Below are positions 4,812-35,093 of a DNA stretch of 64,000 nucleotides, in pieces. The stretch is from the NCBI RefSeq assembly GCF_000190595.1, contig NC_015167.1, forward strand, positions 794,501-858,500, written 5' to 3'. This stretch comes from Cellulophaga lytica DSM 7489. Lineage in GTDB: Bacteria > Bacteroidota > Bacteroidia > Flavobacteriales > Flavobacteriaceae. The notes beneath the pieces are model-generated. The model was not told the DNA's origin. It made no database searches and worked only from the letters and a program-made list of their open reading frames with translations. Position 1 is the first letter of the stretch. Each line of letters begins with the position of its first letter. Made by a program: the position numbers and the translations under genes.

Positions 4812-7406
4812 TTAAAATTTGAATGTTGCGTTTAAAAATACTCTTGTTGGCAACACTGGACGGCCTACAAAAAACTCCTCATCTGTTTGGTTGTTACCTA
4901 ACCTTGGTGAGCCCTCTGTAATACCATCTGAATTAAAAAGATTAAATACCTGTGTACCTATTCTTAATGTTTCTCCTTCTTCACTTAAACTAAAAGTATA
5001 TCCTAAATTAAGGTTAGAAATACCTATTGCGTCTAATTCTATTGTATTTGTTTCATTAGTAAACTTTTTACCTGTGTAGTTAAAATCAAAACTAGCATCT
5101 AGCTTAGCATCATCATAACTAAGGCCTAAAGCACTAATAACGTTTGGTTGTCTTCTTAACTCGTTTCCTTCTATAGCAGGGTCATTTTCAGATTTTGTAA
5201 TCTCATGATCTTGGTATGTAAAAGATCCTGTAAAAGCAAAGTTATCTGCAAAACTCCAGTTCCAAGTACCCTCAAAACCATATGTATTAGAATCTTGCTT
5301 ATCTACTTCTTCTATAAAACCACCATCTGGAGCATTAACAAAGCTAACAGAGCGTCTGTCTTTTAAACTAACATCATATATTGCTGCTGTTGCAGAAAAA
5401 CCAGGAACGCCGTATTTAATACCTAACTCTCCTTGAAGGATTTTTTCTGTATCATATGAAGAAGGATTTCCAAAATCATCAAACTTTGTACCTCTTAATT
5501 CAGGAAAGAAATACCCTCTAGAAAAGTTACCATAAACACTTAAGTTATCATTTACTTTATATAATGCCGCTGCTGCCACTGCAAAATCATCTGCATACAC
5601 ATGGCCTCTTGTATAACTACCATCTCCCCAAGTAACGTTATCTAAACCTGCTATACCTGTATTATCTACTAGGTATGATGTTGTACCTTCATTTTCTATA
5701 TCACCAGAAGCTCTCTCATATCTAATACCAAAATCTAAATTCCATCGGTCTAGTTTAATTTCATCTGCTATAAAAGCTGCTATTTTATTACTAGAAATAT
5801 TACGGTTTGTATATGCTAAACCTCTGTTTGTAACTCCGTTTACACTATAACCAGAAACATTTACTAAGCTAGGTCTGTTATTGTATTCTCCTAAATACCT
5901 TGTTATAACATTAAAATCTCCTGCCTCTGATCTAGAAAAGAAAGTACCAAAAGTTAGGTTGTGCACGCCTGCTGTTTTGGTTAGTTTTATATCTGCCATA
6001 AGCTCACGCAAAGGTCTATCTCTATCTAAAATTCTGTTTTCAAAAAGCAGAGCATCTGCAGCTAAAGGCTGCCCATTTAAGTATGTAAAATCTCCACTTG
6101 CCAAGCTTCTTGCATCTAAATACTCTTGTTGTGTTTCTACAACTTTAGCTCCGTCTACACCACTACCGTCTAAAAACAAATTAAACTGGTGCGCATATTT
6201 AGAGTAACGTAGTTTTGCATCTAGTTTAAAGCTACTATCAAACCTATGCTTAAAGTCTGCCATTATGTAAGATCCTTTAGTAGACACACCATCTTGTATT
6301 GGAGATGTGTAAATACCGTCTGGAGTTCTGTAAGATATGTCTTGAGCTGCAGCTGTTTGTAGCGTAAAAATTTCGTTGCCATCATTACCATAAGGTCTTT
6401 CTCTAGAGCCACCTTCTAATGGGTAAGGCAAGAAAAACTGCACCTGATCATCTATATATTGACCAGAAATTGTAATTGAACCCTTTTCTGTAACGTGCTT
6501 AATATTACCTCTTAATTGAAAACCTTCTGTTGGTAAACCTGTAATAATTGGTCCTTCATCATACCTGTAAAACCCAGATAATGCATAAAAGGTTTTAGAA
6601 TCTTCACCACCTAATGGACCGCTAGTAACAAAATCTGCTTTGTACCTAGAGTTGCTACCAAACTCGGTTCTTAATGTAGTTTTTTGCTGAACTGTACCAG
6701 TAATACTTGTATAGTTTATAATACCTGCAACAGAACCTACACCATATAATATTGATGATCCACCACGTACAAATTCTAAACTTTTAATACCTATATCGTT
6801 CCTAAAATACACATCATGTGCAGATGAGTTTAAACCAAATGTACTTAACACTGGCATACCGTCTATTTGTAATGGGTTAAACTGGTATTGGCCACCAGAA
6901 GGCAAACCTCTAACAAAAATGTTAGATGCTACCTCACCACCACCACCTTCTGCGGTAATACCCGGTACACTACGTAGCACATCTGCCTGGCTACTTGTAT
7001 TTACTTTTGCCAATTGTTTTGCCCCTAAAGAGGTTACAGATAAAGGCGTTTCTTTTTGAGATCTTTTTGTAGATGTTGCTGTAAGTAAAACCTCATCTAA
7101 CTGCTGACCATCTGCATTTAAAACAAAGTTTAATGTAACAGACGACCCAGATAAATTAACTGTTTTTTCTACTGTAGTATATCCTATATAGGTTACTCTT
7201 ACTATTTGCGAACCACTTAAACCAGTGCTTAACGTATAGTTTCCATCAAAATCTGATGTTGTTCCTTCACTTGTGCCTTTAATAATAATGTTTGCTCCAT
7301 CTATTGGAACACCGTCTGCATCTTTAACCGTACCAGAAATATCTGTTTGACCAAACACTCCTGTAACGCTAAAAATTAATGCAAATGCAATAATTAAGTT
7401 TTTCAT
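4812..7406 (-). CDS. TonB-dependent receptor with carboxypeptidase-like N-terminal domain
   Basis: This is an 864-residue outer-membrane importer. It has a signal peptide (MKNLIIAFALIFSVTGVFGQ), a CarboxypepD_reg-like domain (about 20-105), a plug domain with the VLRSVPGITAEGGGG and RGLPSGG signatures, and a 22-strand-type barrel ending in an aromatic strand (VFLNATFKF). No SusD partner is adjacent, so it resembles receptors for small glycosides or siderophore-like ligands rather than a SusCD polysaccharide pair. It heads a four-gene co-directional set with the glycosidase, symporter and glycerate kinase and faces a divergent LacI regulator. Its likely job is outer-membrane uptake of the same glycoside. 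Confidence 0.92.
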   Translation of the reverse strand: MKNLIIAFALIFSVTGVFGQTDISGTVKDADGVPIDGANIIIKGTSEGTTSDFDGNYTLSTGLSGSQIVRVTYIGYTTVEKTVNLSGSSVTLNFVLNADGQQLDEVLLTATSTKRSQKETPLSVTSLGAKQLAKVNTSSQADVLRSVPGITAEGGGGEVASNIFVRGLPSGGQYQFNPLQIDGMPVLSTFGLNSSAHDVYFRNDIGIKSLEFVRGGSSILYGVGSVAGIINYTSITGTVQQKTTLRTEFGSNSRYKADFVTSGPLGGEDSKTFYALSGFYRYDEGPIITGLPTEGFQLRGNIKHVTEKGSITISGQYIDDQVQFFLPYPLEGGSRERPYGNDGNEIFTLQTAAAQDISYRTPDGIYTSPIQDGVSTKGSYIMADFKHRFDSSFKLDAKLRYSKYAHQFNLFLDGSGVDGAKVVETQQEYLDARSLASGDFTYLNGQPLAADALLFENRILDRDRPLRELMADIKLTKTAGVHNLTFGTFFSRSEAGDFNVITRYLGEYNNRPSLVNVSGYSVNGVTNRGLAYTNRNISSNKIAAFIADEIKLDRWNLDFGIRYERASGDIENEGTTSYLVDNTGIAGLDNVTWGDGSYTRGHVYADDFAVAAAALYKVNDNLSVYGNFSRGYFFPELRGTKFDDFGNPSSYDTEKILQGELGIKYGVPGFSATAAIYDVSLKDRRSVSFVNAPDGGFIEEVDKQDSNTYGFEGTWNWSFADNFAFTGSFTYQDHEITKSENDPAIEGNELRRQPNVISALGLSYDDAKLDASFDFNYTGKKFTNETNTIELDAIGISNLNLGYTFSLSEEGETLRIGTQVFNLFNSDGITEGSPRLGNNQTDEEFFVGRPVLPTRVFLNATFKF

Positions 7407-10612: not shown

Positions 10613-12130
10613 TTATTTAACCTCGTAAATAGATACAGTGTTAGAAACCTCATTGGTAATTATCACTAAATTTTCTCCAGACGGACTATCATCTGCAGAT
10701 ACCGTTAGTAAGCCTTCAGGTGCTACATCACTACCATTAAAAATCCAGTGTACATATTCTGGTGCCGCTGGGTTACTAATATCATAAACCATTACACCAC
10801 CTGTACGCTCTAAACCAACAAATAACAAGGTAGCATCTTCAATTTTTAAAGTTGCAACCGATTCTGGTTCAGCTCCTTTATCATCACTTCTACCATCTGC
10901 CTCGCCTTCATCTGCATTAAAATAAGCAGGATTAACTTCTAACGTTTTTCTTCCAATAGCATCTCCACTATCATAAACTAAAGAACCATCTGTATTCCAA
11001 ATTGTAAAAGATCTTGCTCCGTAAGAATATAGCTCATCAAAATCACCATCGTTGTCTGTGTCACCATTTGCCGTAGTAATTTTAAGTCTGCCTAAATTTT
11101 CATCTAACTGAAGATCTGCTGCATTAGGAAAAACTGTAGGATCTAAAGTTACATCCTTAACACGCTCTTCTTCAGAATACCCATCATAATCTCTAGAGTC
11201 ACCTTCATTAGCAGAAATAATATAACCTGCTCCGTTTATAGATGCATACGTTATAGCATCTGGCATATAAAAACCTTTTACTGGCCAGTTTTTAAAATTA
11301 CCAACAATATCATCTTTATTACTAGCATCTAACATATTATCTGCTAGCATATGGTCTTTTATGCCTAAACCAAAAACCTGAGTAATACTTTTAGAGTTTA
11401 AGTTAACTACAGCTATACCATTATTTTCTTGTAAAGAAACGTAAGCAAACCTACTGTCTTTAGAAACCGCTACATACTCTGGCTCTATATCTTGTGCAAC
11501 AGTTGCACCAGGACCAAATACTCTAAAATTATCACCTATGTTTTGATTGTTAAAACCAGCAAAACCTAATTGTACAACTTCATTCTTTTTTAAATCTACA
11601 ACAGTTATAGACCCTTCTGGATCTACAGTATAATCATCATTTGGCTCCCCTTCATTAGCAGATATAATGTAATTACCATCTGGACTAAAAGTTACCATAT
11701 CTGGTAAAGCACCAGTTGTATAGGTGTTTTCTAAAGATTGTGTATCTGTATTATAAATTGCAATTTGTCCGTTTGCTTGTTTATTAGCATTCTCTACTGC
11801 AACAGCCAACAAACCATTATAAGTAGCCACACTATTTGGTGTGCCTGTTAATGCTATAGAGTTTAATTTAGATGGCGACTCAGGAGAAGATATATCCCAA
11901 ACAGATACCTCATTATTATTAGGATTTACAACAAACAGTTTTTTAGAAACCTTATCATAGGCACTAATTTCTGCAAAACCTTCATCTCCGGTTCCGTTGG
12001 TAAAACCACCTACTCTGTTAAATGTTAAGGCAGATGTGTCTATAGGAGTATCACCGCCACTGTTATCGTCTTTATCACAAGAAACAAATAGCGCAACAAA
12101 TAATGCGGCGCTTAATACATATTTTTTCAT
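10613..12130 (-). CDS. Choice-of-anchor I family secreted beta-propeller lipoprotein
   Basis: The 505-residue protein has a lipoprotein signal peptide (lipobox ending at Cys19, FVALFVSCDKD). It contains repeated propeller blades with motifs such as VATYNGLLAVAVEN, MVTFSPDGNYIISANEGEPN and YAYVSLQENNGIAVV. A calcium-loop-like stretch, NGDTDNDGDFDELYSYG, sits near residue 360. This matches the choice-of-anchor I family of secreted proteins, some of which are annotated as alkaline-phosphatase-like. The function is not established; surface binding or an esterase-type role is possible. It stands alone between convergent and divergent neighbours. Confidence 0.8.
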   Translation of the reverse strand: MKKYVLSAALFVALFVSCDKDDNSGGDTPIDTSALTFNRVGGFTNGTGDEGFAEISAYDKVSKKLFVVNPNNNEVSVWDISSPESPSKLNSIALTGTPNSVATYNGLLAVAVENANKQANGQIAIYNTDTQSLENTYTTGALPDMVTFSPDGNYIISANEGEPNDDYTVDPEGSITVVDLKKNEVVQLGFAGFNNQNIGDNFRVFGPGATVAQDIEPEYVAVSKDSRFAYVSLQENNGIAVVNLNSKSITQVFGLGIKDHMLADNMLDASNKDDIVGNFKNWPVKGFYMPDAITYASINGAGYIISANEGDSRDYDGYSEEERVKDVTLDPTVFPNAADLQLDENLGRLKITTANGDTDNDGDFDELYSYGARSFTIWNTDGSLVYDSGDAIGRKTLEVNPAYFNADEGEADGRSDDKGAEPESVATLKIEDATLLFVGLERTGGVMVYDISNPAAPEYVHWIFNGSDVAPEGLLTVSADDSPSGENLVIITNEVSNTVSIYEVK

Positions 12131-20916: not shown

Positions 20917-20940
20917 TTATTTACATAAACCTATTATTAA

Positions 20941-20982
20941 AAAAGAAAGACAGTATCATTGTTATGATACTGTCTTTCTTTT
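20941..20982. terminator. Strong bidirectional terminator
   Basis: A perfect 19-bp stem (20941-20959 with 20964-20982) with a TGTT loop has A's on one side and T's on the other. It separates the convergent propeller remnant and SDR gene. Confidence 0.95.
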
Positions 20983-21001
20983 TTAGCTATTAATTCTCCT
21001 T

Positions 21002-21715
21002 TTATTTACGTGCAGATGGCGGAACAGATGGTCTAACCTCTACTTTGCTTGGTAAGGTTCTAGGGTTCATACGTATTAAATCTACTACCATTTGACCTAT
21101 GTCTTCTGGTTGAATTTTCCAAGCATCTGCATCTGTAGGTGTGTGTCCGTTAAAATACGTAGCTACAGAACCAGGCATAATAGTAGTTACTTTAATATCA
21201 TACGGTCTTAAATCTAACATAATTGCTTGTGAAAAACCAACTACACCAAATTTACTAGCGTTATATGCGGCTCCGTTTTCAAAAAAATTGGTACCTGCTA
21301 AACTAGATATTGTAAAAATGTATCCTTTAGACTTTTTAAGTGCTGGTATTGCTGCCTTAACTGTGTTAAAAACACCAGTTAAATTAATATCTATAACCGA
21401 GTTCCAGTCTTCTGCACTCATTTCATCTATAGGAGAAAACCTCCCTACTCCTGCATTTGCAATACAAAAATCTAAACCACCCCATTTGTCTACAACTTGC
21501 TGTATAGCTTTTTCTTCATCTGCTAAGTTCCTAACATCAGATTTAATAATTAAAACCTCTGCATCTCCTATTGTTTTTAAGTGTTTTTCTGTCTCAACTA
21601 AATCGTTCTGTGTTCTAGCAGTAATAGCTACACTAACTCCTTCTTTTAGCAACGCTTCTGCTATTCCTAATCCAATTCCTTTAGATCCGCCTGTTATGTA
21701 TGCTGTTTTTTTCAT
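21002..21715 (-). CDS. SDR-family NAD(P)-dependent oxidoreductase
   Basis: The 237-residue Rossmann protein carries TGGSKGIGLGIA (about 8-19, cofactor-binding TGxxxGxG), NAGVG (about 90), the catalytic TISSLAG serine and YNASKFG (YxxxK, about 153-157). It is a classical 3-ketoacyl-reductase-like SDR of unknown substrate. A copy of its first 23 codons and upstream junction recurs at 29754-29825, next to the propeller/Dabb gene. This shows that the SDR was formerly the downstream neighbour of that gene and has been separated by 8.1 kb of inserted DNA. It may have lost its original promoter. Confidence 0.9.
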   Translation of the reverse strand: MKKTAYITGGSKGIGLGIAEALLKEGVSVAITARTQNDLVETEKHLKTIGDAEVLIIKSDVRNLADEEKAIQQVVDKWGGLDFCIANAGVGRFSPIDEMSAEDWNSVIDINLTGVFNTVKAAIPALKKSKGYIFTISSLAGTNFFENGAAYNASKFGVVGFSQAIMLDLRPYDIKVTTIMPGSVATYFNGHTPTDADAWKIQPEDIGQMVVDLIRMNPRTLPSKVEVRPSVPPSARK

Positions 21716-21912
21716 TTTAAATTATTTATAATTATTTCTAAAATTAAGAAGAAATTCTGTTTTATTCTGTGGTATAATAATCCATAACAAAAACATCATC
21801 TATTAGCTAACCTATATTTTTTATAAGTGCTAAATGTTCTTTATGAACTAAATATACCTCTAGTGTTTTTTCATCTTTAAAAGTAAGCATAAAACTATGG
21901 GTAAACCCTTTA
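21644..21912. repeat. About 270-bp direct repeat, left copy
   Basis: Aligned base by base with 29754-30023, it shows 13 substitutions and one 1-bp gap (about 95% identity). It spans the first codons of the SDR gene, the 46-bp junction and the last 50 codons of the propeller/Dabb gene. The period is about 8110 bp. Confidence 0.93.
21762..21912 (-). pseudogene. 3' fragment of the propeller/Dabb gene
   Basis: The reverse strand reads the final codons of the 508-residue protein encoded at 29873-31399 (the end MDYYTTE and the terminal stop are intact). Homology stops abruptly at 21912. It is a remnant left by the 8.1-kb insertion. Confidence 0.85.
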
Positions 21913-22114
21913 TTTATTATAGTAACTAATAACTTAATAAATACAAAGAATTCATCAAGTTAATTTCTTTTACATTTCCCTTTATTTTAAAAATATAGTC
22001 TTTTAGAAAAGAAAAGAAACCGTTTAGAAAAATTTTTAAATACATAAGCGCAGCACTTTTACATTTGCTTTCATATACCAGTAAACCTATTTAAAAACCA
22101 AAAAATAAAACCAA
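21913..22114. other. Intergenic left margin of the 8.1-kb insertion
   Basis: This is an AT-rich upstream region for the anchor/LRR lipoprotein gene. I see no gene. A single ACCGTTTAG at 22019-22027 fits one half of a LytTR-type binding site, but no properly spaced second half is evident. Confidence 0.4.
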
Positions 22115-24598
22115 ATGAGAAAAAAAATTACAGCGTATACAAGTGTTATAGTTTTTATGCTAATTAGTATAATAAGTTGTAGTAAAGATGAAGAAATTTT
22201 ACCTGCAGAATTTTCTATTGATGAAACTATGTTTGATTATGCAGGTGTTATGGTAACTGAATTTTCATCAAAGAGTTTTACCATAACTAATACAGGAGGT
22301 AGAGATTTAGAATTAACTTCTTTTTCATTAACAGGAGATGCCTCTGCAGATTTTTCAACAAATGCTTCAGAAAATTCATTGTCAGCAGGAGATAGTTACG
22401 TGTTTGATGTAGTTTTTGAGCCGCAATCAGAAGGAGAAAAAAACGCAGACCTTGTTATATTAACTAATGATGGAAAAAAAACTATAAACTTAACAGGTAT
22501 AGCATCTCCTCAGTTAGTGGCTGCTGCTACTTTGAGTACTACAAACATTGATTTTACCAATGTAGAAATAGGAGCATCGAGTTCTTTACCATTTACAATT
22601 ACAAGTACTGGAGATAGTGATTTAGAAATAATTGGATATTCTTTTTCTGGAGCTAATGCAAGTGATTTTACTACAAACGGAACAGCAACAACAGTAAGTC
22701 CAAACCAAACTTCAGATGTTTCGGTAACTTTTACACCGCAATCTGAAGGTGTAAAATCTGCTGTGTTAGCAATAGAAACGAATGCAGGAACTTTTAATGT
22801 TGCTGTTGAAGGAAATGGAACTGCGCAACCAATGCCTGTTATTTCTTTAGACAACACTTCATTAGATTTTGAAGATGTTGAACTAAATACGGATAATGAT
22901 TTAATATTGGTAGTATCAAATACTGGATCTGCAGATTTAGTTATTACTAATTTTACGTTTAACGGAACAGATGCGTCTCAATTTTCAGTACAAAACGTAG
23001 TTACACCTTTAACCATTGCTGCAGGAACCAATACATCAGTAACTGTACAATTTAGTCCAACTTCTGAAGGAGCAAAATCTGCGGTATTAGTTATAGATTC
23101 AAATGTGGCAGATGCTTCTGTAAGTTTAACAGGTACAGGAATTGCAGCAGCTACTTCTGTGATGCAGTTTAGTGAATCACCAATTAGTTTTGGAAATGTA
23201 GCCGTAGGACAAGAGTTGTCTAAAAACATTACAATTTCTAATACAGGTACTGCAGATTTAGAGATTACTAATGCAAATGTTATTGGAGGTAGTTCTGCAT
23301 CATCTTTCACAGTAATAGGAGGAACAAGTTCGTTAATTAGAACAATTGCTCCTGGAGGTAGTTATACATTTGAAGTAAAGTTTACTCCAAGTTCAGAAGG
23401 TTTTGCTTCTGGTTCTATTAGATTTAGTAATAATTCTAGTGAAAATGAAGTGTCTTTACCAATGAATGGAACAGGAACAGCGCCAGCACAACCTGCAATT
23501 GCATTTAGTGAAACAGGATTAAATTTTGGAGACGTTACAGTTGGCAACTCAGGAACCGATTTAACTTTTGATATTCAAAATAATGGTCAAGGAAATTTAG
23601 AGGTAAGCACTATTAGAATTAACGGAGCTAACGCAAGTGATTTTAGTTTAATTAATGTGTCTGCACCACAAACTGTAATGACAAACGGTTATTATACTGT
23701 TAATGTTAGATTTACACCACAAAGCGTAGGCCAAAAATACGCACAAATTGTTGTAGAAAGCAATGATCCTACAAAACCTAATTATGGTATTATAGCTCAA
23801 GGAAATGGATTACAAGCTACTACAGGTACTATTGTTAATATACCAGATGCTAACTTTAAAGCAGCATTAGTAGGGAATTCATCAATCAATACAAACGGAG
23901 ATGGTGAAATTCAAGTGTCAGAAGCTCAAGCTTTCACGGGTGAAATTAGAGTAGACGGATTAAATATTTTAGATGTAACGGGTTTGGAGGCTTTTGTGAA
24001 TATTACACAGTTTCATGCAGAGAATAATTCGTTAACAAGTATAGATTTAAGTCAAAATACAGCAGTAACAAGGTTAACCTTAAAAGGAAATAGTTTAACA
24101 GCCTTAGATCTTTCTGCTAATTTAGCACTAGAAACTATATTAATTCAGCAAAATAGTATTAGTACAATAGATTTAACAAATCATTCTAGCTTAGTGAACT
24201 TTCAATGTGGAGACAACAATATTTCTACGCTAGTGTTACCTACTACTGCAAACGGTTTAAGAACTTTATATTTAGAAGAAAATCAAATTAGTACGTTAGA
24301 TGTTTCTATGTATCCAGATTTAAGAACACTTGTTGCGTATAATAACAACTTGTCAAGTATGGATATTTCTAATAATTCAAGAGTAATCTCATTGCATGTA
24401 AGAAATAATAATTTAACAAGTTTAAACGTAGCAAATGGTAATAATGTAAATTTCATTTATATGGTTGCAGATGGAAATGCTAACTTAACGTGTATTCAAC
24501 ATGATGCAGGTTTTGATCCTTTAAATCCACCAAATACTACAGCAAATCAATGGTCAAAGCCAAGCGGAGCCTCTTGGAGTACTACTAGCTGTCAATAA
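22115..24598 (+). CDS. Lipoprotein with five choice-of-anchor-D/ASH-like domains and C-terminal leucine-rich repeats
   Basis: The 827-residue protein has a lipoprotein signal (FMLISIISC, Cys near residue 22). Five Ig-like repeats of about 100 residues follow, each with an F-x-x-V-x-(V/I)-G-x(5-8)-(I/V)-T-N-T-G pattern, for example FGNVAVGQELSKNITISNTG. From about residue 575 comes the segment VNIPDANFKAALVG and then LRRs (LKGNSLTALDLSANLALETI and similar) up to the C-terminus. These modules are known for binding and adhesion, and the protein is probably surface exposed. It is the first gene of the 8.1-kb insertion, upstream of a secreted protein and a two-component pair. Confidence 0.85.
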   Translation: MRKKITAYTSVIVFMLISIISCSKDEEILPAEFSIDETMFDYAGVMVTEFSSKSFTITNTGGRDLELTSFSLTGDASADFSTNASENSLSAGDSYVFDVVFEPQSEGEKNADLVILTNDGKKTINLTGIASPQLVAAATLSTTNIDFTNVEIGASSSLPFTITSTGDSDLEIIGYSFSGANASDFTTNGTATTVSPNQTSDVSVTFTPQSEGVKSAVLAIETNAGTFNVAVEGNGTAQPMPVISLDNTSLDFEDVELNTDNDLILVVSNTGSADLVITNFTFNGTDASQFSVQNVVTPLTIAAGTNTSVTVQFSPTSEGAKSAVLVIDSNVADASVSLTGTGIAAATSVMQFSESPISFGNVAVGQELSKNITISNTGTADLEITNANVIGGSSASSFTVIGGTSSLIRTIAPGGSYTFEVKFTPSSEGFASGSIRFSNNSSENEVSLPMNGTGTAPAQPAIAFSETGLNFGDVTVGNSGTDLTFDIQNNGQGNLEVSTIRINGANASDFSLINVSAPQTVMTNGYYTVNVRFTPQSVGQKYAQIVVESNDPTKPNYGIIAQGNGLQATTGTIVNIPDANFKAALVGNSSINTNGDGEIQVSEAQAFTGEIRVDGLNILDVTGLEAFVNITQFHAENNSLTSIDLSQNTAVTRLTLKGNSLTALDLSANLALETILIQQNSISTIDLTNHSSLVNFQCGDNNISTLVLPTTANGLRTLYLEENQISTLDVSMYPDLRTLVAYNNNLSSMDISNNSRVISLHVRNNNLTSLNVANGNNVNFIYMVADGNANLTCIQHDAGFDPLNPPNTTANQWSKPSGASWSTTSCQ

Positions 24599-24667
24599 AC
24601 AAAATTTACTAAATATACAGAAGTTGCCTGTAGTTACAGGCAACTTTACTCAACTAAATATGTTATT

Positions 24668-25993
24668 ATGAAACTTACAACATCAAAAATAATATGTCTA
24701 TTTTTTTTGGGTTTTTTAACGCAATTTTCTGCACACGCGCAATTTGGAAATATGCTTAAAAAAGCTAAAAAAAATATAGCTAAAAAGGCAGAAAATAAAA
24801 TAAGCGCTAAAAACAGTACTAGCGACTCTAATAGTCAGACCAATTCAGAAGAAAAAACATCATACACAGACGAAGAATTTAAACAAGAACTAGCTAAAAA
24901 GTACCCTAACGATAAGGAAAAGCAAGAGTACTATTTTAAAAAGTATAAAGAATACCAACAAAAACAAACCGCAGAAAAAGAAGCTTTATTAGCTAAAGAA
25001 AATAGTAAAGGAACGGTTGTGAGTGAAATTCCTTCCCCGGTAGAAAGTAGTGAAGATGATAAATTTAAAGACAATCAAATTTATGTGTTAAACAGAACAA
25101 AGTTTAAAAAAATACCTGCTTATGATGGTGGTTTTTCAGATAAAATGAAACTGTCTGGTTACTACCATTTATCACAATATTTTGTTAGAAACCCTGCAAA
25201 CCATTTTGATAGTGACCCAGGTGATATTTATGAAGGTTTTTCTTTAGAATACAACCCTGAATCTTATGAAGTAAACGCATATTTTTCTGCCGATAAAAAG
25301 CGTTACGGTGTGGTTCCTGAACAGTATAGAAAATCTGCTAATAAAGGAAATATTCAGTTTCAGTTTGGTATGGGAGACGGACCAGAGTGGACCAATGCCA
25401 ACGTGCTTTTACTTGAACCGGGTGTACTATTAATTGGAGCAGAAGTGTATCATAAAAATGATGAAGAAGGACATAAATGGATGAATAACGCACAACCACA
25501 ACAGTTTGTTATTGCAGCTAAAAATCCTGATTTAATAAAAAAGTATTATAAAAACCCAGAGGTAACTTCTAAGGCAACTTTTGCAAAGTTTGATGATTTA
25601 CGTAAAGACTGGTTAGGAGCAAAGTTAAATAGTGTAACAATGCCAGTAAAAGGAAGTTTTGATAAAAACTCAGCAATTAAAACTGCAGCTGTAAGTGGAT
25701 TAAATACATACTATGGTAAAATGAGTATGAAAAACTTATATCAATACATGACATCTAATAAATGGTCTACTGTAAAACATAAAGTAACAGGCGTGCCTTT
25801 ATATCAATGGTCGGTTGGTGCTGTTATACAAGAAAATAAAAGTGGGAAATGTATGCTAAACCAATTTATTGTAAGAAGAGATTATACTGGTGGTGGCAAC
25901 TACGGAAATCCGTATTTTAACGGAATAAACCGCGGTAGTATTAGAGCACCATATGGAGATTATGTAAAGTGTGATGCAAGGCCAAATAATTAA
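24668..25993 (+). CDS. Secreted hypothetical protein
   Basis: The 441-residue protein has a signal peptide (IICLFFLGFLTQFSAHAQ), a lysine-rich linker (KKAKKNIAKKAENKISAKN) and a Gln/Lys/Glu coiled-coil-like stretch to about residue 115. A compact domain of about 320 residues ends in a glycine/aromatic-rich segment (DYTGGGNYGNPYFNGINRG). I do not recognise a family. It is 70 bp behind the anchor/LRR gene and followed by a terminator, so the two likely form one transcription unit. Confidence 0.75.
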   Translation: MKLTTSKIICLFFLGFLTQFSAHAQFGNMLKKAKKNIAKKAENKISAKNSTSDSNSQTNSEEKTSYTDEEFKQELAKKYPNDKEKQEYYFKKYKEYQQKQTAEKEALLAKENSKGTVVSEIPSPVESSEDDKFKDNQIYVLNRTKFKKIPAYDGGFSDKMKLSGYYHLSQYFVRNPANHFDSDPGDIYEGFSLEYNPESYEVNAYFSADKKRYGVVPEQYRKSANKGNIQFQFGMGDGPEWTNANVLLLEPGVLLIGAEVYHKNDEEGHKWMNNAQPQQFVIAAKNPDLIKKYYKNPEVTSKATFAKFDDLRKDWLGAKLNSVTMPVKGSFDKNSAIKTAAVSGLNTYYGKMSMKNLYQYMTSNKWSTVKHKVTGVPLYQWSVGAVIQENKSGKCMLNQFIVRRDYTGGGNYGNPYFNGINRGSIRAPYGDYVKCDARPNN

Positions 25994-26040
25994 ATACTAA
26001 CAATTAAAAGCAACTAATTTTTAGATTTATATTTTAAAAG

Positions 26041-26084
26041 AAAAGGCGGTGATTTGTTTATATTGCAATACCGTCTTTTTTTTT
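26041..26084 (+). terminator. Terminator before the sensor kinase gene
   Basis: AAAAGGCGGT (26041-26050) pairs with ACCGTCTTTT (26070-26079, one G-T pair), followed by a run of T's. It closes the unit ending at 25993. Confidence 0.85.
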
Positions 26085-26101
26085 GACATAGTTTATATTT
26101 T

Positions 26102-29008
26102 GTGAAAAATTACCTTTACATACTAGTTTTTATCTTTTTTTGCAACAGCATAGCTTTTGCTCAAGATCCTTTTTTTACCCATTTTGGATCTAATGAAGGT
26201 TTGGTTGCTTTAGCTAATTTTAATGTAGTTCAAGATGATCAAAATTTAATTTGGATTGGAAGTGAAAAGGGTTTGTTTTACTATGACGGAAAACAATTTA
26301 CCTTGGTTAAAAATGAAAAAGCCACAACTAAAGGTATTTTTAATTTACAAAAAGATGAAAACGGAAACCTATGGTGCTCCACAATATCTGGACATATTTA
26401 TAAGGTTAAGAATAAAAAATTAGTTTTATTTAAAGACTTATCTTCAGAATTAAAAGGAGCTTTTGCTCATTTATGTATTCTCAAAAAAAATATTTTCTTT
26501 CTTTCGCAAACAGAGAGCTTTCAGTTAGACAAACAGACTGCTGAAATCAAAAAAAAACTCAATACCAAAGTATCAAAAGTTATTAAAATAAATAATGGGT
26601 TTTATTATTATAACATTAATTCTGTAAATACTTTAACGTTAGTAGAAGAAATTAATAATGAAATACAAACCACCATACTAAAAGAAAATAAACAATTTGA
26701 CTTTGGTAAATTCCAAACTCTAAAATTATTTAATAATGCTGCTTTTGTAAGAGATAGCGACAAAAAAGTATTTTTAATTAAAGCAAAAACTAAAGAGTTA
26801 GAATCTATTACACTACCAAAAACAGTACAACAATTACAGATCTACACATCTAAATTAATTGGTAATACTACCTGGTTATTAACCTCAAAAGGCATTGTAC
26901 AATTAGTTAAAAATAAAACCGGTTTTATTGTTAAAAATCATTTTTTAAAACAATACCAAATTACAGATTTACAGGTTGATAACGAAGGTAATTATTGGTG
27001 TACAACATTATACAACGGCGTTTTAGTAATGCCAAATTTAGCAGTAACTAAACACTATGTTTTACCCAAAGACGATGATATTATTTTTGTAGAAAAAGCA
27101 TCCGAAAATATTTTATTACTTGGTACGCAAAAAGGATATTTTGTAGTCTATAACATTAAAGAAAAATCTTTTAAAAAAATAGAAATACCTAATTCACGAC
27201 CGGTGAATAGAATTTATTACAATTCGGCTTCTAAAAAAGCTTTTATAAGTACTAACGGAACCAATAGTTATACCTATTCTTTACATGATGAAAAGTTAGT
27301 TACATTAAAAACGGAATTTACTACAGCTAAGGGTTTTGCTGAAATAAATAAGGATTCATTACTATACCTTTCTTACAGAGGTGTTTTGCTTTATAACAAT
27401 ATTCAAAAGAGCACAATGCACCAGGAAATAGCCACAAAACGCCCAATAAGTGTGCATTATGACACAAATAGTAAAAAATCTTACATTAGTTATATAGATG
27501 GAACGGTTTCTTACAATCATCAATTTAAAACTACACCTGTTTATTATAATAAAAAACCAATAATATTCTCTAATTATACATCAACAACTCACAATGTTTG
27601 GGCCTTGTCTAATAATAAATTATATCATTTAAATAATGCTCAAATAAAAGATAGCATAACTGCAAAAGAGGGTTTGCTAAATTCTCAAATTCAAGGAATT
27701 TTAGGTGTTGATAATCAAATTTGGATTGTTACAGAAAAAGGAATTCAAAAATTTAATGAAGCAACCAGAGAAATTACCACCATTAAATTAAAAGATGAAA
27801 ACTCTATAAAATTTAAACAACCTATTTATGCCAACAAATCGTTATGGATTCCTGGAAACAATTACTTGTGCGTAATAAATAATGATGGCGAGGATTTATT
27901 TAAACAAAATAAAATTCCTAACGCATATATTAGCGAGGTTACCGTTGGAGGAGAACCTTCTCCTTATAAAACATCTTATTTGTTACCATATAATACTAAT
28001 GACATCACTTTTCTGCTTAGGGCAAATGGTTTTTTAGCAAACAAACAGCTTGTGTTTCAATACAAACTTAAAGGCTATGATGCTAATTGGCAAACTGCAG
28101 AGCTTAACGAGGATATTGTAAGGTATATTGGAATACCTTCTGGAAAGTACCAATTTTTAATTAGAAGTAAAGCTTTAAACGGGGATGTTGGTACAATAAG
28201 CGAGCCAGTAATTATAAATGTTGAAAAGCCTTTTTGGGATACTTGGTGGTTTTATGCGTTAGCCATAATAGTTGCTGTAATAGGAACAGTTCTTTATTTT
28301 AAAATTAAAATGAGAATTAAGGAGGAAGAAGGACAACGAACATTAGAAAAAGTAATTTTAGATAGTAGAATTAGTAAGTTAAAGCTAGAAAACTTGCGCT
28401 CTCAAATGAATCCGCATTTTATTTTTAATTCTTTAGGTGCTATCCAAGACTATGTTATGAAGAACGAAAAATATTTAGCTAGTGATTATTTAGTGAAATT
28501 TTCTCGTTTAATACGCTTATATCTTGATCATAGCCGACTGAATTCTATTTCTTTAAAGGAAGAAATCAATTCTCTAGAAATATACATTGCTTTAGAACAA
28601 CTTCGATTTGAAAAAAAGTTTGAAGTACATTTAAATATTGACTCAAAATTACAGCAAGACCAAATACAAGTACCACCATTATTTATTCAACCTTTTGTTG
28701 AAAATGCAATAAAACACGGTTTAATTCATAAAAAAAATCCAGGTAACTTATGGATTCATTTAAATCATCTTGCAAGTGATATTATTCAAATAATTGTTGA
28801 AGATAATGGAATTGGAAGAAAAAAATCTGCAGAAATAAATAAAAAAAGAAGAGGACATCAATCTTTTGCAGTTAGTGCAACCGAAGAAAGGATAGCTTTG
28901 TACAAAAAAGAAAAGTTATTTGTGATTAAGGTAGATTTTAAGGATAAAAAAGATGTAAATAAACAGCCCGCAGGAACTAAAGTAACCATAACCATTAAAA
29001 AGTTTTAA
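26102..29008 (+). CDS. Triple-Y/propeller sensor histidine kinase (LytS/HisKA_5 type)
   Basis: The start is GTG at 26102; it gives an immediate signal peptide (KNYLYILVFIFFCNSIAFAQ), which supports this choice. Of its 968 residues, about 20-620 are regulator-propeller repeats (NLIWIGSEKGLFYYDG, NYWCTTLYNGVLV). A Y_Y_Y domain follows (about 625-710, FQYKLKGYDANWQTA), then one transmembrane helix (about 715-735), then a His-kinase domain with QMNPHFIFNSL (phospho-His about 775), PFVENAIKHG (about 864) and EDNGIGRKKS (about 900). It is a membrane sensor that should phosphorylate the LytTR regulator encoded one base downstream. Unlike many propeller sensors of Bacteroidota it is not a hybrid, because no receiver is fused. 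Confidence 0.92.
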   Translation: MKNYLYILVFIFFCNSIAFAQDPFFTHFGSNEGLVALANFNVVQDDQNLIWIGSEKGLFYYDGKQFTLVKNEKATTKGIFNLQKDENGNLWCSTISGHIYKVKNKKLVLFKDLSSELKGAFAHLCILKKNIFFLSQTESFQLDKQTAEIKKKLNTKVSKVIKINNGFYYYNINSVNTLTLVEEINNEIQTTILKENKQFDFGKFQTLKLFNNAAFVRDSDKKVFLIKAKTKELESITLPKTVQQLQIYTSKLIGNTTWLLTSKGIVQLVKNKTGFIVKNHFLKQYQITDLQVDNEGNYWCTTLYNGVLVMPNLAVTKHYVLPKDDDIIFVEKASENILLLGTQKGYFVVYNIKEKSFKKIEIPNSRPVNRIYYNSASKKAFISTNGTNSYTYSLHDEKLVTLKTEFTTAKGFAEINKDSLLYLSYRGVLLYNNIQKSTMHQEIATKRPISVHYDTNSKKSYISYIDGTVSYNHQFKTTPVYYNKKPIIFSNYTSTTHNVWALSNNKLYHLNNAQIKDSITAKEGLLNSQIQGILGVDNQIWIVTEKGIQKFNEATREITTIKLKDENSIKFKQPIYANKSLWIPGNNYLCVINNDGEDLFKQNKIPNAYISEVTVGGEPSPYKTSYLLPYNTNDITFLLRANGFLANKQLVFQYKLKGYDANWQTAELNEDIVRYIGIPSGKYQFLIRSKALNGDVGTISEPVIINVEKPFWDTWWFYALAIIVAVIGTVLYFKIKMRIKEEEGQRTLEKVILDSRISKLKLENLRSQMNPHFIFNSLGAIQDYVMKNEKYLASDYLVKFSRLIRLYLDHSRLNSISLKEEINSLEIYIALEQLRFEKKFEVHLNIDSKLQQDQIQVPPLFIQPFVENAIKHGLIHKKNPGNLWIHLNHLASDIIQIIVEDNGIGRKKSAEINKKRRGHQSFAVSATEERIALYKKEKLFVIKVDFKDKKDVNKQPAGTKVTITIKKF

Positions 29009-29009
29009 A

Positions 29010-29759
29010 ATGAGAGCACTAATTATTGATGATGAAGCTAAGGCTAGGAGTGTTTTACAAACAATGCTTTCTGAATTTTTTACAGAAATAACAGGTATTA
29101 AATTAGCTGAGAATTTAATGGAAGGTGTAAAGGTAATTAAGGATTATAAACCTGATATTGTTTTTTTAGATATTGAGATGCCAGAATATTCTGGTTTAGA
29201 AATACTTGATTTTATTAATGAACCAATTAATTTTCAATTGATTTTCACAACAGCTTATCAACAATATGCGTTAGATGCGCTTAAATTATCAGCTGTTGAT
29301 TATTTAGTAAAACCAATAGCAATTGATGAGTTAAAAACAGCCATTCAAAAAGCAGTAGTAAATATTGAGTCTAAAAAGGTATCTTTTCAGTTTGAAGAAT
29401 TAAAAAAGGCTATACAATCACTTTCTTCACATAAAATAGCTTTAGAAATTCCTGGCGAGATAATTTTTGTATCACATGATGATATTTTATACCTAGAAGC
29501 AGATGGAATGTACACTAATGTTTACCTTGCCAACAATAAACAAGAATTGATATGTAAACCATTATCTTATTTTGAAACACAATTAAAAGGAAATCATTTA
29601 TTTTTTAGATGTCATAGATCTTATTTAATAAATCTGCATTACCTAGAAAAATATGTAAAAAAGGATGGCGACTTTTTACAAATGGAAAATAAAATAGCTA
29701 TTCCTATTTCTAAAACAAAAAAGCAAGAATTTTTAAAAATAGTAAAAGAGGTGTTTTAG
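29010..29759 (+). CDS. LytTR-family response regulator
   Basis: The 249-residue protein has a receiver domain (acidic D7/D8, phospho-acceptor Asp about 54 in VFLDIEMP, conserved Thr in TTAYQQ, Lys in YLVKPI) and a LytTR DNA-binding domain (about 145-249, with DILYLEADGMYTNV and FFRCHRSYLINL). It starts one base after the sensor kinase stop, so the pair is co-expressed. Likely targets are the surface-protein genes of the same insertion; this is inferred from position only. The stop codon lies within the first bases of the right 270-bp repeat. Confidence 0.95.
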   Translation: MRALIIDDEAKARSVLQTMLSEFFTEITGIKLAENLMEGVKVIKDYKPDIVFLDIEMPEYSGLEILDFINEPINFQLIFTTAYQQYALDALKLSAVDYLVKPIAIDELKTAIQKAVVNIESKKVSFQFEELKKAIQSLSSHKIALEIPGEIIFVSHDDILYLEADGMYTNVYLANNKQELICKPLSYFETQLKGNHLFFRCHRSYLINLHYLEKYVKKDGDFLQMENKIAIPISKTKKQEFLKIVKEVF

Positions 29760-29825
29760 CAATGCCTACGCTATTCCTAATCCAATTCCTTTAGATCCGC
29801 CTGTTATGTATGCTGTTTTTTTCAT
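29754..29825 (-). pseudogene. 5' fragment of the SDR gene
   Basis: Starting with ATG at 29825, the reverse strand encodes MKKTAYITGGSKGIGLGIA and then an in-frame TAG, where the intact SDR has GAA. Homology ends at 29754. It is the remnant of the SDR start that originally followed the propeller/Dabb gene. Confidence 0.88.
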
Positions 29826-30023
29826 TTTTAAATTATTTACAATTATTTCTAAAATTAATAAGAAATTCTGTTTTATTCTGTGGTATAATAATCCATAACA
29901 AAAACATCATCTATTAACGAACCTATATCATTAATAAGTGCTAAATGTTCTTTATGAACTAAATATGCCTCTAGTGCTTTTTCATCTTTAAAAGTAAGCA
30001 TAAAACTATGGGTAAACCCTTTA
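29754..30023. repeat. About 270-bp direct repeat, right copy
   Basis: It matches 21644-21912 at about 95% identity. Here the propeller/Dabb end is native and the SDR part is a remnant. The two copies bound the 8.1-kb unit with four genes. Confidence 0.93.
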
Positions 30024-31399
30024 CTTTTTCCTTCTTTACTATTGTTAATTCCCCATTCAAAATCTATAATCTCAGGAATTTTATTTTTTAACGCTACAAA
30101 ATTCTCTACTGCCCTATTTACCTCTTTTGGTGTAGCTGCATCTTTATATTTTAAATTTATAACATGTCTAAGTTTTTTGCCATTTTTTGGCTTAAAATTG
30201 ACTTTATACGCAAACATCTTTTTTACTTTTGGATCTACAGAACCAGATAGAAAAAAGAAATTCTCTTTAATTTTTATTGATGTTAAACCGTAATAAATAG
30301 GGTAGTTAGTATCTAACACGCTAGAAGGTTTTAATACGCCATTTGCGTTTAACTTACATAATTGTATACTGTTATCATCACGTGTACCTATTGCTACCAA
30401 TGCTTCAGAATCATCAATTTTTAATATTTCAATACGTGTTTGTCCTGCTAATTTTGTGGCAGCATTATTAACTAAAACAGAATGAGGAATAAGCTCTCCT
30501 GCCTCATTAACTTTAAAAACGCTTACACCATCACCGTGAAAAATAAAATCTTTCTTCTTTATAAAATTACCTCTTTTATAATATTTATGATGTCTATGCC
30601 CTACAACAATATAATGGTTACCTCCTAAAGTAACTCCGTTTACAGGATATGTACCTGTTAAGTAACGGTTGGTGGTATTGTCTGCAATGTTATTTATATT
30701 TTTAAAATTACCATTGTTAAAAACCTCAAAACTACTAATGCCATTGTCTTGAAAACCACCTGTAATAAGATACGTTTTGCCATTTATTTTATGAGAATAC
30801 ATACCAATTATACCGTCTGTATGTATAAGATCATCATCTGCAAGCGATTGTATATGACTAAGTTTTCCGTTCTTATGTATTTTAAAACAACTTAAACCAG
30901 GTGTGCTCTCTAACCCACCAACAAAAAGGTAAAAATTATTTTTTATATGAATAACCTTAAGGGTAATAACTGTGCCTAAATATGTTTCTGGCGTATCGTT
31001 TAAAACAAATGCCCTTTGTAAACTTCCGTTATCCTCTATGCTATAAACTTCTACACTGTTGCCTCCTTTATTGCCAACAAACAAATAATCTGTTCCTTTA
31101 ATATTGTGGGCTACCAAACCTCTTGCTGGTCCTTTTTTATTCTGCAACTCATAAGCACCAACTGGCATTAATTCTCCGGTAGCGTTTAATTTAAATACAT
31201 TTATAAATGCACCATCTCCCCCAGAAAACACGTAATTAACTCCGTTTTTCTTATAAGTAGTAGCTGTTACTGTGTTGTACTTAGTTGTTTTGTAATCTGT
31301 TTGTTCTAAAATGGTAAGGTTACCTTTTGTAAGTTGAGCGTAACCAAGCAGGCAATTACAACTTACAATAACAAAAAATATACTTTTAATCCAATTCAT
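29873..31399 (-). CDS. Secreted beta-propeller protein fused to a C-terminal Dabb domain
   Basis: The 508-residue protein has a signal peptide (cleavage near LLGYAQ). Residues about 25-400 form a lactonase-like propeller with repeated blades (YVFSGGDGAFINVFKLN, YLFVGNKGGNSVEVYSI, YLITGGFQDNGISSFEVF). The last 100 residues (LRHVINLKYKDAATPKEV to VMDYYTTE) look like a stress-responsive Dabb alpha/beta barrel. Dabb domains are usually cytoplasmic or single-domain dimers, so a secreted fusion is unusual. It starts one base after the GlcG/HbpS-like gene on the same strand and was formerly followed by the SDR gene. Its role is unknown; binding or turnover of a small aromatic or haem-like ligand is speculation. 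Confidence 0.8.
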   Translation of the reverse strand: MNWIKSIFFVIVSCNCLLGYAQLTKGNLTILEQTDYKTTKYNTVTATTYKKNGVNYVFSGGDGAFINVFKLNATGELMPVGAYELQNKKGPARGLVAHNIKGTDYLFVGNKGGNSVEVYSIEDNGSLQRAFVLNDTPETYLGTVITLKVIHIKNNFYLFVGGLESTPGLSCFKIHKNGKLSHIQSLADDDLIHTDGIIGMYSHKINGKTYLITGGFQDNGISSFEVFNNGNFKNINNIADNTTNRYLTGTYPVNGVTLGGNHYIVVGHRHHKYYKRGNFIKKKDFIFHGDGVSVFKVNEAGELIPHSVLVNNAATKLAGQTRIEILKIDDSEALVAIGTRDDNSIQLCKLNANGVLKPSSVLDTNYPIYYGLTSIKIKENFFFLSGSVDPKVKKMFAYKVNFKPKNGKKLRHVINLKYKDAATPKEVNRAVENFVALKNKIPEIIDFEWGINNSKEGKSKGFTHSFMLTFKDEKALEAYLVHKEHLALINDIGSLIDDVFVMDYYTTE

Positions 31400-31400
31400 T

Positions 31401-31940
31401 TTATTTTGTTTTTTTCTCTGTTAATATAGATTTTGCTCCGTAAGTCGCTATTTTATGATCCTCCTCTATTGTACCACCACTTACTCCTATGGCTCCTATT
31501 ATTTTTCCTTTATTGTTTTTGATAGGAACTCCTCCTGGAAAACTGACTAACCCATTATTAGAGAGTTCTATATTGTAAATAATACCACCTGGTTGGGTAA
31601 GTTTACCTAAATCTCCCGTAGCGATATTAAAATAACGAGAGGTTTTTGCCTTTTTTATAGCTACATCTATACTACCTAAAAAAGAATCGTCCATACGTAT
31701 AAAGGCTTTTAAATTTGCTCCTGCATCTACCACTGCAATATTTACCAAAACTCCCATAGTCTCTGCTTTCTCTTTTGCTGCCAAAACAGCACTTAAAGCA
31801 TCTTTATCTGTAACATCTGTTGTGTTTTGCGCCACTAAAAAAGGTGAGGTAAAAATTAGGAGTACAAATAAAAGTCTACTGTGTTTTAAAGTTTTTTCTT
31901 TTGGTTTAGAGGCAGTTTTATGGTTATAAAAATTCATCAT
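31401..31940 (-). CDS. Secreted GlcG/HbpS-family protein
   Basis: The 179-residue protein has an N-terminal extension of about 22 residues before a hydrophobic signal (RLLFVLLIFTSPFLVAQ), then a complete GlcG/HbpS fold (about 45-178: NIAVVDAGANLKAFIRMD, FPGGVPIKNNKGKIIGAIGVSGG). HbpS is known as an extracytoplasmic haem-binding protein and GlcG as a protein of unknown role. It heads the operon with the propeller/Dabb gene. The second Met (31937) is an equally possible start. Confidence 0.85.
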   Translation of the reverse strand: MMNFYNHKTASKPKEKTLKHSRLLFVLLIFTSPFLVAQNTTDVTDKDALSAVLAAKEKAETMGVLVNIAVVDAGANLKAFIRMDDSFLGSIDVAIKKAKTSRYFNIATGDLGKLTQPGGIIYNIELSNNGLVSFPGGVPIKNNKGKIIGAIGVSGGTIEEDHKIATYGAKSILTEKKTK

Positions 31941-34325: not shown

Positions 34326-35093
34326 TTAATTTTTTACACGAAAACAAACTTTAAGCATTTGGTATAAGTCTGGATGTTTTTTCTTCATTAGTTTGGGCTT
34401 TTCAAAAAAATATTCTGCAGCTACTGCTAAAAACTCAGCTTCATTGGTTCCTCCATAATTTCTAATATCAGACTTATTATCATTAATGGCTTCCATTTCT
34501 TTATGTATAATTTTTAACCAAGGTATAACATTAGGTTCTTGTATTAATCGTTCTGGCACACCATCAATAACACCATCTTGTTTGTCTATTAAATGTACAA
34601 ACTCATGAATACCTGTGTTATGAACATGTGCTTTTTTTTGAAATCCTTGATGAAGTGCTTTTCTAGATAAAAGCATTTGATTTTTAAATTGCCCACTACC
34701 CACCATACCTGCAATATTTCTGTTTTTATCTTTTTGTGCAAAACCCAAATCTTCATTAAAATGGTCTGGGTAAACCAATACTGTACTTAAGTTTTTGTAA
34801 TACCACTCATTAAAATTAAAAACAGGAATTACAGCACTAGATGCAATTAAAACCCTATCTACATCTTCTAATTTAAAACCTACACTTTCCACATTAACCT
34901 CACTTAAAAACAGCATTATACGTGCTTGAAAACGTTGTTGTTCTGCTACAGATAAGTTTTTATAAAACCGAACGTGTTTTAATAAAATAGTATGCCAATT
35001 GGCAGGAAAAGCTTGTGCCTTTTTCTTTCTGGTTAACATAAAACCATAAATAATAAAGGCTACTAACAGTAAAAATCCAATAGTATATATCAT
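34326..35093 (-). CDS. Membrane-anchored MtfA-like zinc metallopeptidase (M90)
   Basis: The 255-residue protein has an N-terminal membrane helix (about 1-20, IYTIGFLLLVAFIIYGFML) and a soluble domain with HEFVHLID (HExxH, about 168-175) followed by an NEAEFLAVAAEYFFEKP helix supplying the third ligand. MtfA of E. coli is soluble and inactivates the Mlc repressor. Here the membrane anchor suggests a different partner. It lies between two photolyase-type genes on the same strand. Confidence 0.87.
   Translation of the reverse strand: MIYTIGFLLLVAFIIYGFMLTRKKKAQAFPANWHTILLKHVRFYKNLSVAEQQRFQARIMLFLSEVNVESVGFKLEDVDRVLIASSAVIPVFNFNEWYYKNLSTVLVYPDHFNEDLGFAQKDKNRNIAGMVGSGQFKNQMLLSRKALHQGFQKKAHVHNTGIHEFVHLIDKQDGVIDGVPERLIQEPNVIPWLKIIHKEMEAINDNKSDIRNYGGTNEAEFLAVAAEYFFEKPKLMKKKHPDLYQMLKVCFRVKN

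Follow-up and report, generated by a model that had tools for sequence, protein, structure and literature searches.

A sensor kinase-LytTR module between two copies of a host gene junction in Cellulophaga lytica, and a second insertion of the same form

In Campbell-type plasmid integration, also called insertion-duplication, a cassette comes to lie between two copies of a homologous segment. A closely similar arrangement, "insertion with long target duplication", was described for restriction-modification genes of Helicobacter pylori [Nobusato, Uchiyama, Ohashi and Kobayashi, 2000, Gene 259:99; see PMC1643837, PMC3031569, PMC4978471, PMC3154945]; as the available text of the later papers outlines it, genes that are absent in a relative are flanked by a long direct repeat, the sequence of which is single there. 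In Arabidopsis, transposed genes have likewise been reported with flanking direct repeats whose sequence is present at the empty site of a relative, and the part of that report considered here weighs both target duplication and a circle recombining at the target [PMC2869330]. To judge by their titles, papers on long target duplication are concerned mostly with H. pylori or with restriction-modification, and none of these titles names a flavobacterium; nor is the pattern described in the titles listed among papers on illegitimate recombination in natural transformation.

The locus presented here is in the genome of Cellulophaga lytica DSM 7489, within a stretch of 64 kb, i.e., the whole of the DNA that was analysed, which is referred to as the window. 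Its features are as follows (positions are those of the window).

21002-21715, minus strand: SDR oxidoreductase, intact (Pfam adh_short, 2.1e-54), once the last gene of a HbpS-propeller/Dabb-SDR row
21644-21912, no strand assigned: left junction copy, with the first 24 SDR codons, the intergenic stretch and the last 50 propeller/Dabb codons as a dead copy
22002-22030, plus strand: predicted LytTR-type direct repeat, TTTAGAAA-N13-TTTAGAAA, upstream of the LRR gene
22115-24598, plus strand: LRR lipoprotein, with five choice-of-anchor D / ASH domains and a C-terminal LRR (Pfam, NCBIfam; lipoprotein as read from the N-terminus)
24668-25993, plus strand: secreted protein, partner in the module (secretion as read from the N-terminus)
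26102-29008, plus strand: sensor histidine kinase, with Reg_prop propeller, Y_Y_Y and His_kinase domains
29010-29759, plus strand: LytTR response regulator (Response_reg-LytTR), its last codon and stop, TTTTAG, on the right joint
29754-30023, no strand assigned: right junction copy, with 19 SDR codons, a stop and the live propeller/Dabb end
29873-31399, minus strand: propeller/Dabb protein, intact (Pfam Dabb, 6.6e-23), 92-93% identical in two relatives (G007, G005)
31401-31940, minus strand: HbpS/GlcG-like gene (Pfam HbpS-like, 1.9e-35), first of the ancestral row

The two junction copies, with edges read from the sequence, are 269 and 270 bp long, in direct orientation and about 94% identical. 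BLAST pairs 21644-21918 with 29754-30029 (276 columns, 94.2%, E 1.6e-118) and carries both copies six bases past 21912 and 30023, at lower identity. The left copy differs from the right at 14 of 271 compared columns, one of these at the outer edge, and by one indel, and the longest runs common to both are 59, 57 and 46 bp. When the window was compared with itself (repeats of at least 60 bp, E up to 1e-8, copies up to 30 kb apart), there was one other direct repeat, of 229 bp and 67%, against this strong pair. The original prediction of a split operon at 21644-30023 had been made from the letters and a list of open reading frames, and its anatomy was borne out: the direct repeats of about 270 bp are present; the left one holds the intact SDR start together with the last 50 propeller/Dabb codons (codons 459-508, with one in-frame TAG); the right one holds the intact propeller/Dabb end and the first SDR codons, ending in a TAG after codon 19; and the 7.8-kb spacer between them carries four plus-strand genes, opposite in direction to the SDR and propeller/Dabb genes. 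An assembly artefact is unlikely as the source of the repeats, because the genome is one contig (of 3,765,936 bases), the copies differ at 14 of 271 columns and have different flanks, and the sequence is single copy in relatives. Excision of the insert by recombination between the repeats would be possible from their arrangement. At 20938-20985, two convergent genes are separated by an inverted repeat (22 bp, perfect, with a loop of 4 bp) that probably terminates transcription from both sides. The motif TAnnTTTG is absent within 400 bp upstream of the SDR gene and equally absent before HbpS, and hence is uninformative about an SDR promoter.

The close relatives compared at the site were G007, G005 (C. 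omnivescoria) and G004, from a set of 18 genomes of the genus (the present genome included), and it is in these three relatives only that the orthologous site is present. In each of them the HbpS-propeller/Dabb-SDR row is uninterrupted, with a single junction, and nothing in the surrounding 19-20 kb aligns to window positions 21919-29751 (blastn, E up to 1e-8). Thus, relatives with an unbroken propeller/Dabb-SDR pair, which the original prediction had proposed to look for, exist with one junction each and without the insert, and they have the genes in the order that it had taken to be ancestral (GlcG/HbpS, propeller/Dabb, SDR). As the row is uninterrupted in these relatives, the inserted block and the partial gene copies are most likely the derived state; precise loss via the repeats would look identical to never having carried the insert. 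Across the genus, the propeller/Dabb gene is near full-length in 8 of the 18 genomes, the present one included, with some match in 15. A propeller/Dabb gene (55-56%) with an SDR neighbour is also found in G015, G001, G010 and G002 (L052-L055), where the SDR is 31-34% identical and may be another SDR that occupies the equivalent place. The gene at 34326-35093 adjoins a cryptochrome-like gene both here and in G004; its match in G007 and G005 (79-80%) adjoins the SDR gene.

By its gene content, the insert forms a module complete in itself, and relatives of it occur in other Flavobacteriaceae. The His_kinase protein and the Response_reg-LytTR protein adjoin each other, as in a LytTR two-component system. 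Among the matches listed (best E per genome), the kinase is full-length in the present genome only of the 18 genus genomes, the best other match being 30% over residues 537-966, in G001. In a sample of 397 genomes of the family, the kinase is found at E up to 1e-70 in 40 (own included). With at most two candidates scored per genome, there were 45 family kinase matches outside the present genome, and the surroundings of 40 were examined (L116-L126 and L210-L238; those left out were two from G096 and one each from G074, G175 and G289). A regulator match is directly beside the kinase at 39 of the 40 loci, and at L236 it is about 0.8 kb away, beyond a second kinase piece. Within the stretches fetched around these 40 loci there is a relative of the LRR gene in 17, of the secreted-protein gene in 11, and of either in 21; it is the LRR part of the lipoprotein that matches genes near the homologous kinases. 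The secreted protein, which has no sequence match in Pfam, NCBIfam or PDB, is matched in 16 of the 397 genomes (own included). A 168-amino-acid protein at 11638-12144 of L116 is 62% identical to its residues 319-435, and, on this likeness, two neighbouring genes may have fused to give the window protein. The order of genes in the window is LRR, secreted protein, kinase, regulator; in six of the seven examined loci that have both partner genes, it is kinase, regulator, secreted protein, LRR.

The G+C content of the insert (0.302) is near that of the window (0.322), and thus composition gives no mark of foreign origin. A search for a closer donor in 395 genomes of the order (E up to 1e-155) returned the present genome and the already known G229 only. 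The open reading frames of the insert include no integrase, recombinase, transposase or insertion sequence (open reading frames, Pfam, NCBIfam) and no replication or mobilisation gene (Pfam). The insert has no megablast match in the plasmid and phage collections, the viral contigs scanned contain no relative of the kinase, and PHROGs matches of the inserted proteins are to families of unknown function and one hydrolase family. Defence cargo was considered as well and set aside, the matches being weak ones to response regulators and TPR proteins only.

LytTR regulators bind paired direct repeats that are two helical turns apart. The motif predicted upstream of the LRR gene occurs in exact form once in the genome, inside the insert; with up to one mismatch it occurs at 21 places, versus 14 for a reversed control motif. 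Of 11 family loci scanned, all but L119 have an exact copy of the repeat, with the same 21-bp spacing, next to the module (10 of 11); because the window and L126 served to derive the motif, nine of the ten other loci are independent. The exact family motifs sit mostly before secreted-protein or LRR genes, and the motif with one or two mismatches stands before nine of those family kinase genes. Taking together the binding habit of LytTR regulators and the placement of the motif, the module would act alone once in place: the kinase, answering its presumed signal, would phosphorylate the LytTR regulator, which would bind the repeat at 22002-22030 and drive the LRR and secreted-protein genes. Thus, the module would bring its own target with it.

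How did such a module come to lie between two copies of a junction? The account regarded here as the probable one is that a foreign module of about 7.8 kb, probably from outside the genus, was joined to the row at two positions separated by about 270 bp. Foreign DNA would have been taken up, and with it the kinase, regulator and target genes; it would have been joined through short matches, as DNA was repaired or replicated, at two staggered positions of the row; and the stretch between these points would have been copied, so that it now stands on both sides of the insert. The form of the event, i.e., insertion with duplication of the target, is held far more firmly than this route, and the donor is our interpretation, as the route is. 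The sequence TTTTAG, which is the last codon and stop of the regulator gene, lies exactly on the right joint and also occurs in the host SDR gene. This would fit joining at a short match; it may also have arisen by chance, and F-M-stop is the ending of 8 of 11 regulator relatives. The genome has no match to Ku, and classical non-homologous end joining is therefore unlikely; the Ku control matched in one of 14 genomes, Bacillus subtilis. Both of the split genes stay whole only if the insertion copies the junction, which is why products of this kind survive selection.

A comparison of the divergence of the repeats with that of the genome, also proposed in the original prediction, was carried out. 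The left and right copies differ at 14 of 271 positions, the left copy and G005 at 12, and the right copy and G005 at 14, which is close to a three-way split; a maximum-likelihood tree groups the left and right copies with 71% support. Examined along their length for a mosaic structure, the repeats have few usable sites. At fourfold sites, the present genome differs from G005 by 0.22 (131/595) for six genes close by and by 0.118 (20/169) for the propeller/Dabb gene alone; these counts leave out the PQQ gene (for all three relatives) and the CRY gene (for G004). The comparison fits an old duplication and a donor junction from another lineage alike. Since the copies are about as far from each other as from G005, which is more than a simple recent duplication predicts, the insertion would seem to be old, with an age probably a little below that of the species split, or else the incoming junction came from another lineage. 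In the SDR gene, 21242-21541 has an excess of changes private to this genome, where the three relatives agree; it is probably a separately imported tract, and stops short of the repeat.

There is a second insertion in the same genome, at a locus designated L129. Its two copies are located as follows (G000 is the present genome, C1 its contig).

G000:C1:60526-60844 (L129 527-845): left copy of the L129 repeat
G000:C1:66665-66983 (L129 6666-6984): right copy of the L129 repeat

This direct repeat of 319 bp is 99% identical between copies (three differences), encloses 5.8 kb, and is the 3' part of a DUF5606/DUF6852 gene, a target unrelated to that in the window. The repeat has one main match in each of the 17 other genomes of the genus (74-91%), with one further match of 25-43 bases each in G006, G009, G014 and G017, and the locus is uninterrupted in G005, G007, G004 and G012. 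The insert, with a G+C content of 0.27 versus 0.309 in the flank, encodes a MORN-repeat protein, a protein of 340 amino acids, a TPR histidine kinase and a LytTR regulator. At E up to 1e-60 this kinase has a relative in G014 only (40%), with the regulator adjoining; the other two genes are absent from that contig, where the kinase is 1.1 kb from the contig end. Read from its sequence, L129 is the same form of insertion with the same class of cargo, a kinase with a LytTR regulator, as that in the window; the two have unrelated targets and similar repeat lengths, and no recombinase was seen. The L129 insertion is recent on the measure of its repeats, the copies differing at three positions from each other and at 23-24 of 319 from G005. 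The right copy continues past the repeat edge by 11 bp, which are identical to G007 and resemble the left copy poorly. This faintly suggests that different alleles gave rise to the two copies, and such a mismatch favours a donor that already carried the target. At 18952-20000 of L129, reaching the end of that stretch, units of about 291 bp are repeated in tandem (94-97% identity).

The main rival to joining at two staggered points is a donor, circular or linear, that already carried the junction. In its Campbell form, a circle with the cassette and a copy of the junction, perhaps from a strain that already had the insertion, would have integrated by a single crossover. This is a real but clearly less likely possibility: the structure of the product is exactly as it predicts, and if the junction on the circle were from another lineage, both a left-right distance near the distance to G005 and the mismatch of alleles at the edge of L129 would be expected. 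However, an identical product results from insertion in one step with staggered joints, the insert has neither a plasmid or phage match nor a gene for replication or mobilisation, and an earlier event that united junction and cassette would be needed, so that the circle explains the spread of the arrangement and not its origin. It is improbable that the insertion is ancestral to the clade and was lost precisely from G007, G005 and G004: the repeats do permit such loss, and the left-right distance is about as large as that to G005, but a loss is demanded in all three relatives, and among the matches listed no other genome of the genus retains a full-length kinase. Still less probable is tandem duplication of a larger ancestral region followed by a deletion that left the cassette between remnants of the junction. 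By reasoning only, this would yield direct repeats without any mobile element, but several more steps are needed, the cassette is unaligned in the 19-20 kb around the row in G007, G005 and G004, and no full-length kinase is found elsewhere in the genus among the matches listed. Finally, some integrative elements leave flanking direct repeats and intact gene ends, and both are seen here, but a site-specific element or transposon with long att-like repeats is very improbable for an insert that has no integrase, recombinase or transposase and whose repeats are coding sequence of two host genes, the target at L129 being unrelated. Staggered joining of a foreign module is the preferred account.

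Two insertions with LytTR cargo in one genome raise the matter of whether cargo and form of insertion are linked. Flanking direct repeats (of at least 60 bp, sought inside 20-kb stretches) span 2 of the 18 LytTR loci of the present genome, and ten kinase loci that were examined, partly at the same places, have none. As a control, 35 stretches of 20 kb of the same genome were taken (19 of 20 and 16 of 20 planned; one fell on the window and four overlapped earlier stretches, and these were dropped), with the best five or six repeat pairs considered for each. The only verified insertion among them is L129, itself a LytTR locus, and without the four stretches that bear LytTR genes the comparison is 2 of 18 versus 0 of 31, which is not significant (p about 0.13, estimated by hand). 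The link is suggestive, two cases being too few for proof. In G007, 19 of 20 planned stretches (one that overlapped was dropped) have no pair of at least 150 bp and at least 85% identity that is more than 2 kb apart, save for shifts within the tandem array of L200. Two other arrangements were noticed in the genome of C. lytica. At L182 (G000:C1:1660368-1680367), small single genes lie between related repeats of up to 659 bp (91-99.6%), resembling a cassette array; at L189, a 92-bp repeat of 89% (6017-6108 and 10665-10752) is beside an apparent polymorphic toxin-immunity locus.

Mobility built into the module itself was also considered. Among the 40 family loci, repeats around the kinase were found in L118, L227 and L234 only, and none was clean. 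In L118, a 228-bp repeat (3087-3313 and 10842-11069) flanks the homologous cassette of G131; this repeat is matched five times in G131, once at 70%, and was rejected as a second clean case. The repeats in L227 and L234 are 71-75% identical and were taken as paralogous genes. As judged from these stretches, clear flanking repeats are present around the same cassette in none of the 40 other family loci. In L239, one of two genus loci run, repeats of 112 bp (72-78%) lie around a distant kinase.

A tentative generalisation, more doubtful than the account of either insertion, is that self-contained kinase-LytTR-surface-protein modules repeatedly enter Cellulophaga by long target duplication without a recombinase of their own, and that the copies may carry donor alleles. 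If so, genes can move in this manner outside restriction-modification systems as well, and the insertion target travels with the cargo. The insertion in the window itself shows how an entire sensing module can be accommodated inside a functioning row of genes while both neighbours stay intact. The L129 insertion, with its repeats 99% identical, could still be polymorphic within the species. The form of insertion is already known; what is new is a second insertion of this form in one genome, again with a kinase and a LytTR regulator as cargo.

Compared with known systems, the module has the same domains (Reg_prop-Y_Y_Y-His_kinase), the same adjacency of kinase and regulator and the same paired predicted repeat boxes as other LytTR modules of Flavobacteriaceae, but those mostly have the order kinase, regulator, secreted protein, LRR, whereas in the window the LRR gene is first. 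Campbell-type integration gives the same end product, but here there is no plasmid backbone, replication gene or matching plasmid record. The Arabidopsis cases, as far as the consulted part of that report goes, differ in being eukaryotic, with mostly shorter repeats and single genes rather than a bacterial module. The closest likeness is to long target duplication: the insert is absent and the target single in G007, G005 and G004, and a host-derived repeat of 269-270 bp is on both sides of an insert with no transposase, integrase or insertion sequence. The cargo in H. pylori, as given in the portions of those papers drawn on here, is restriction-modification genes, whereas here it is a two-component system with surface or secreted proteins, in a marine member of Bacteroidota. 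Two cases from Bacteroidota, one old and one recent, are thus added to a mechanism which, in those portions, is discussed mainly for restriction-modification in H. pylori.
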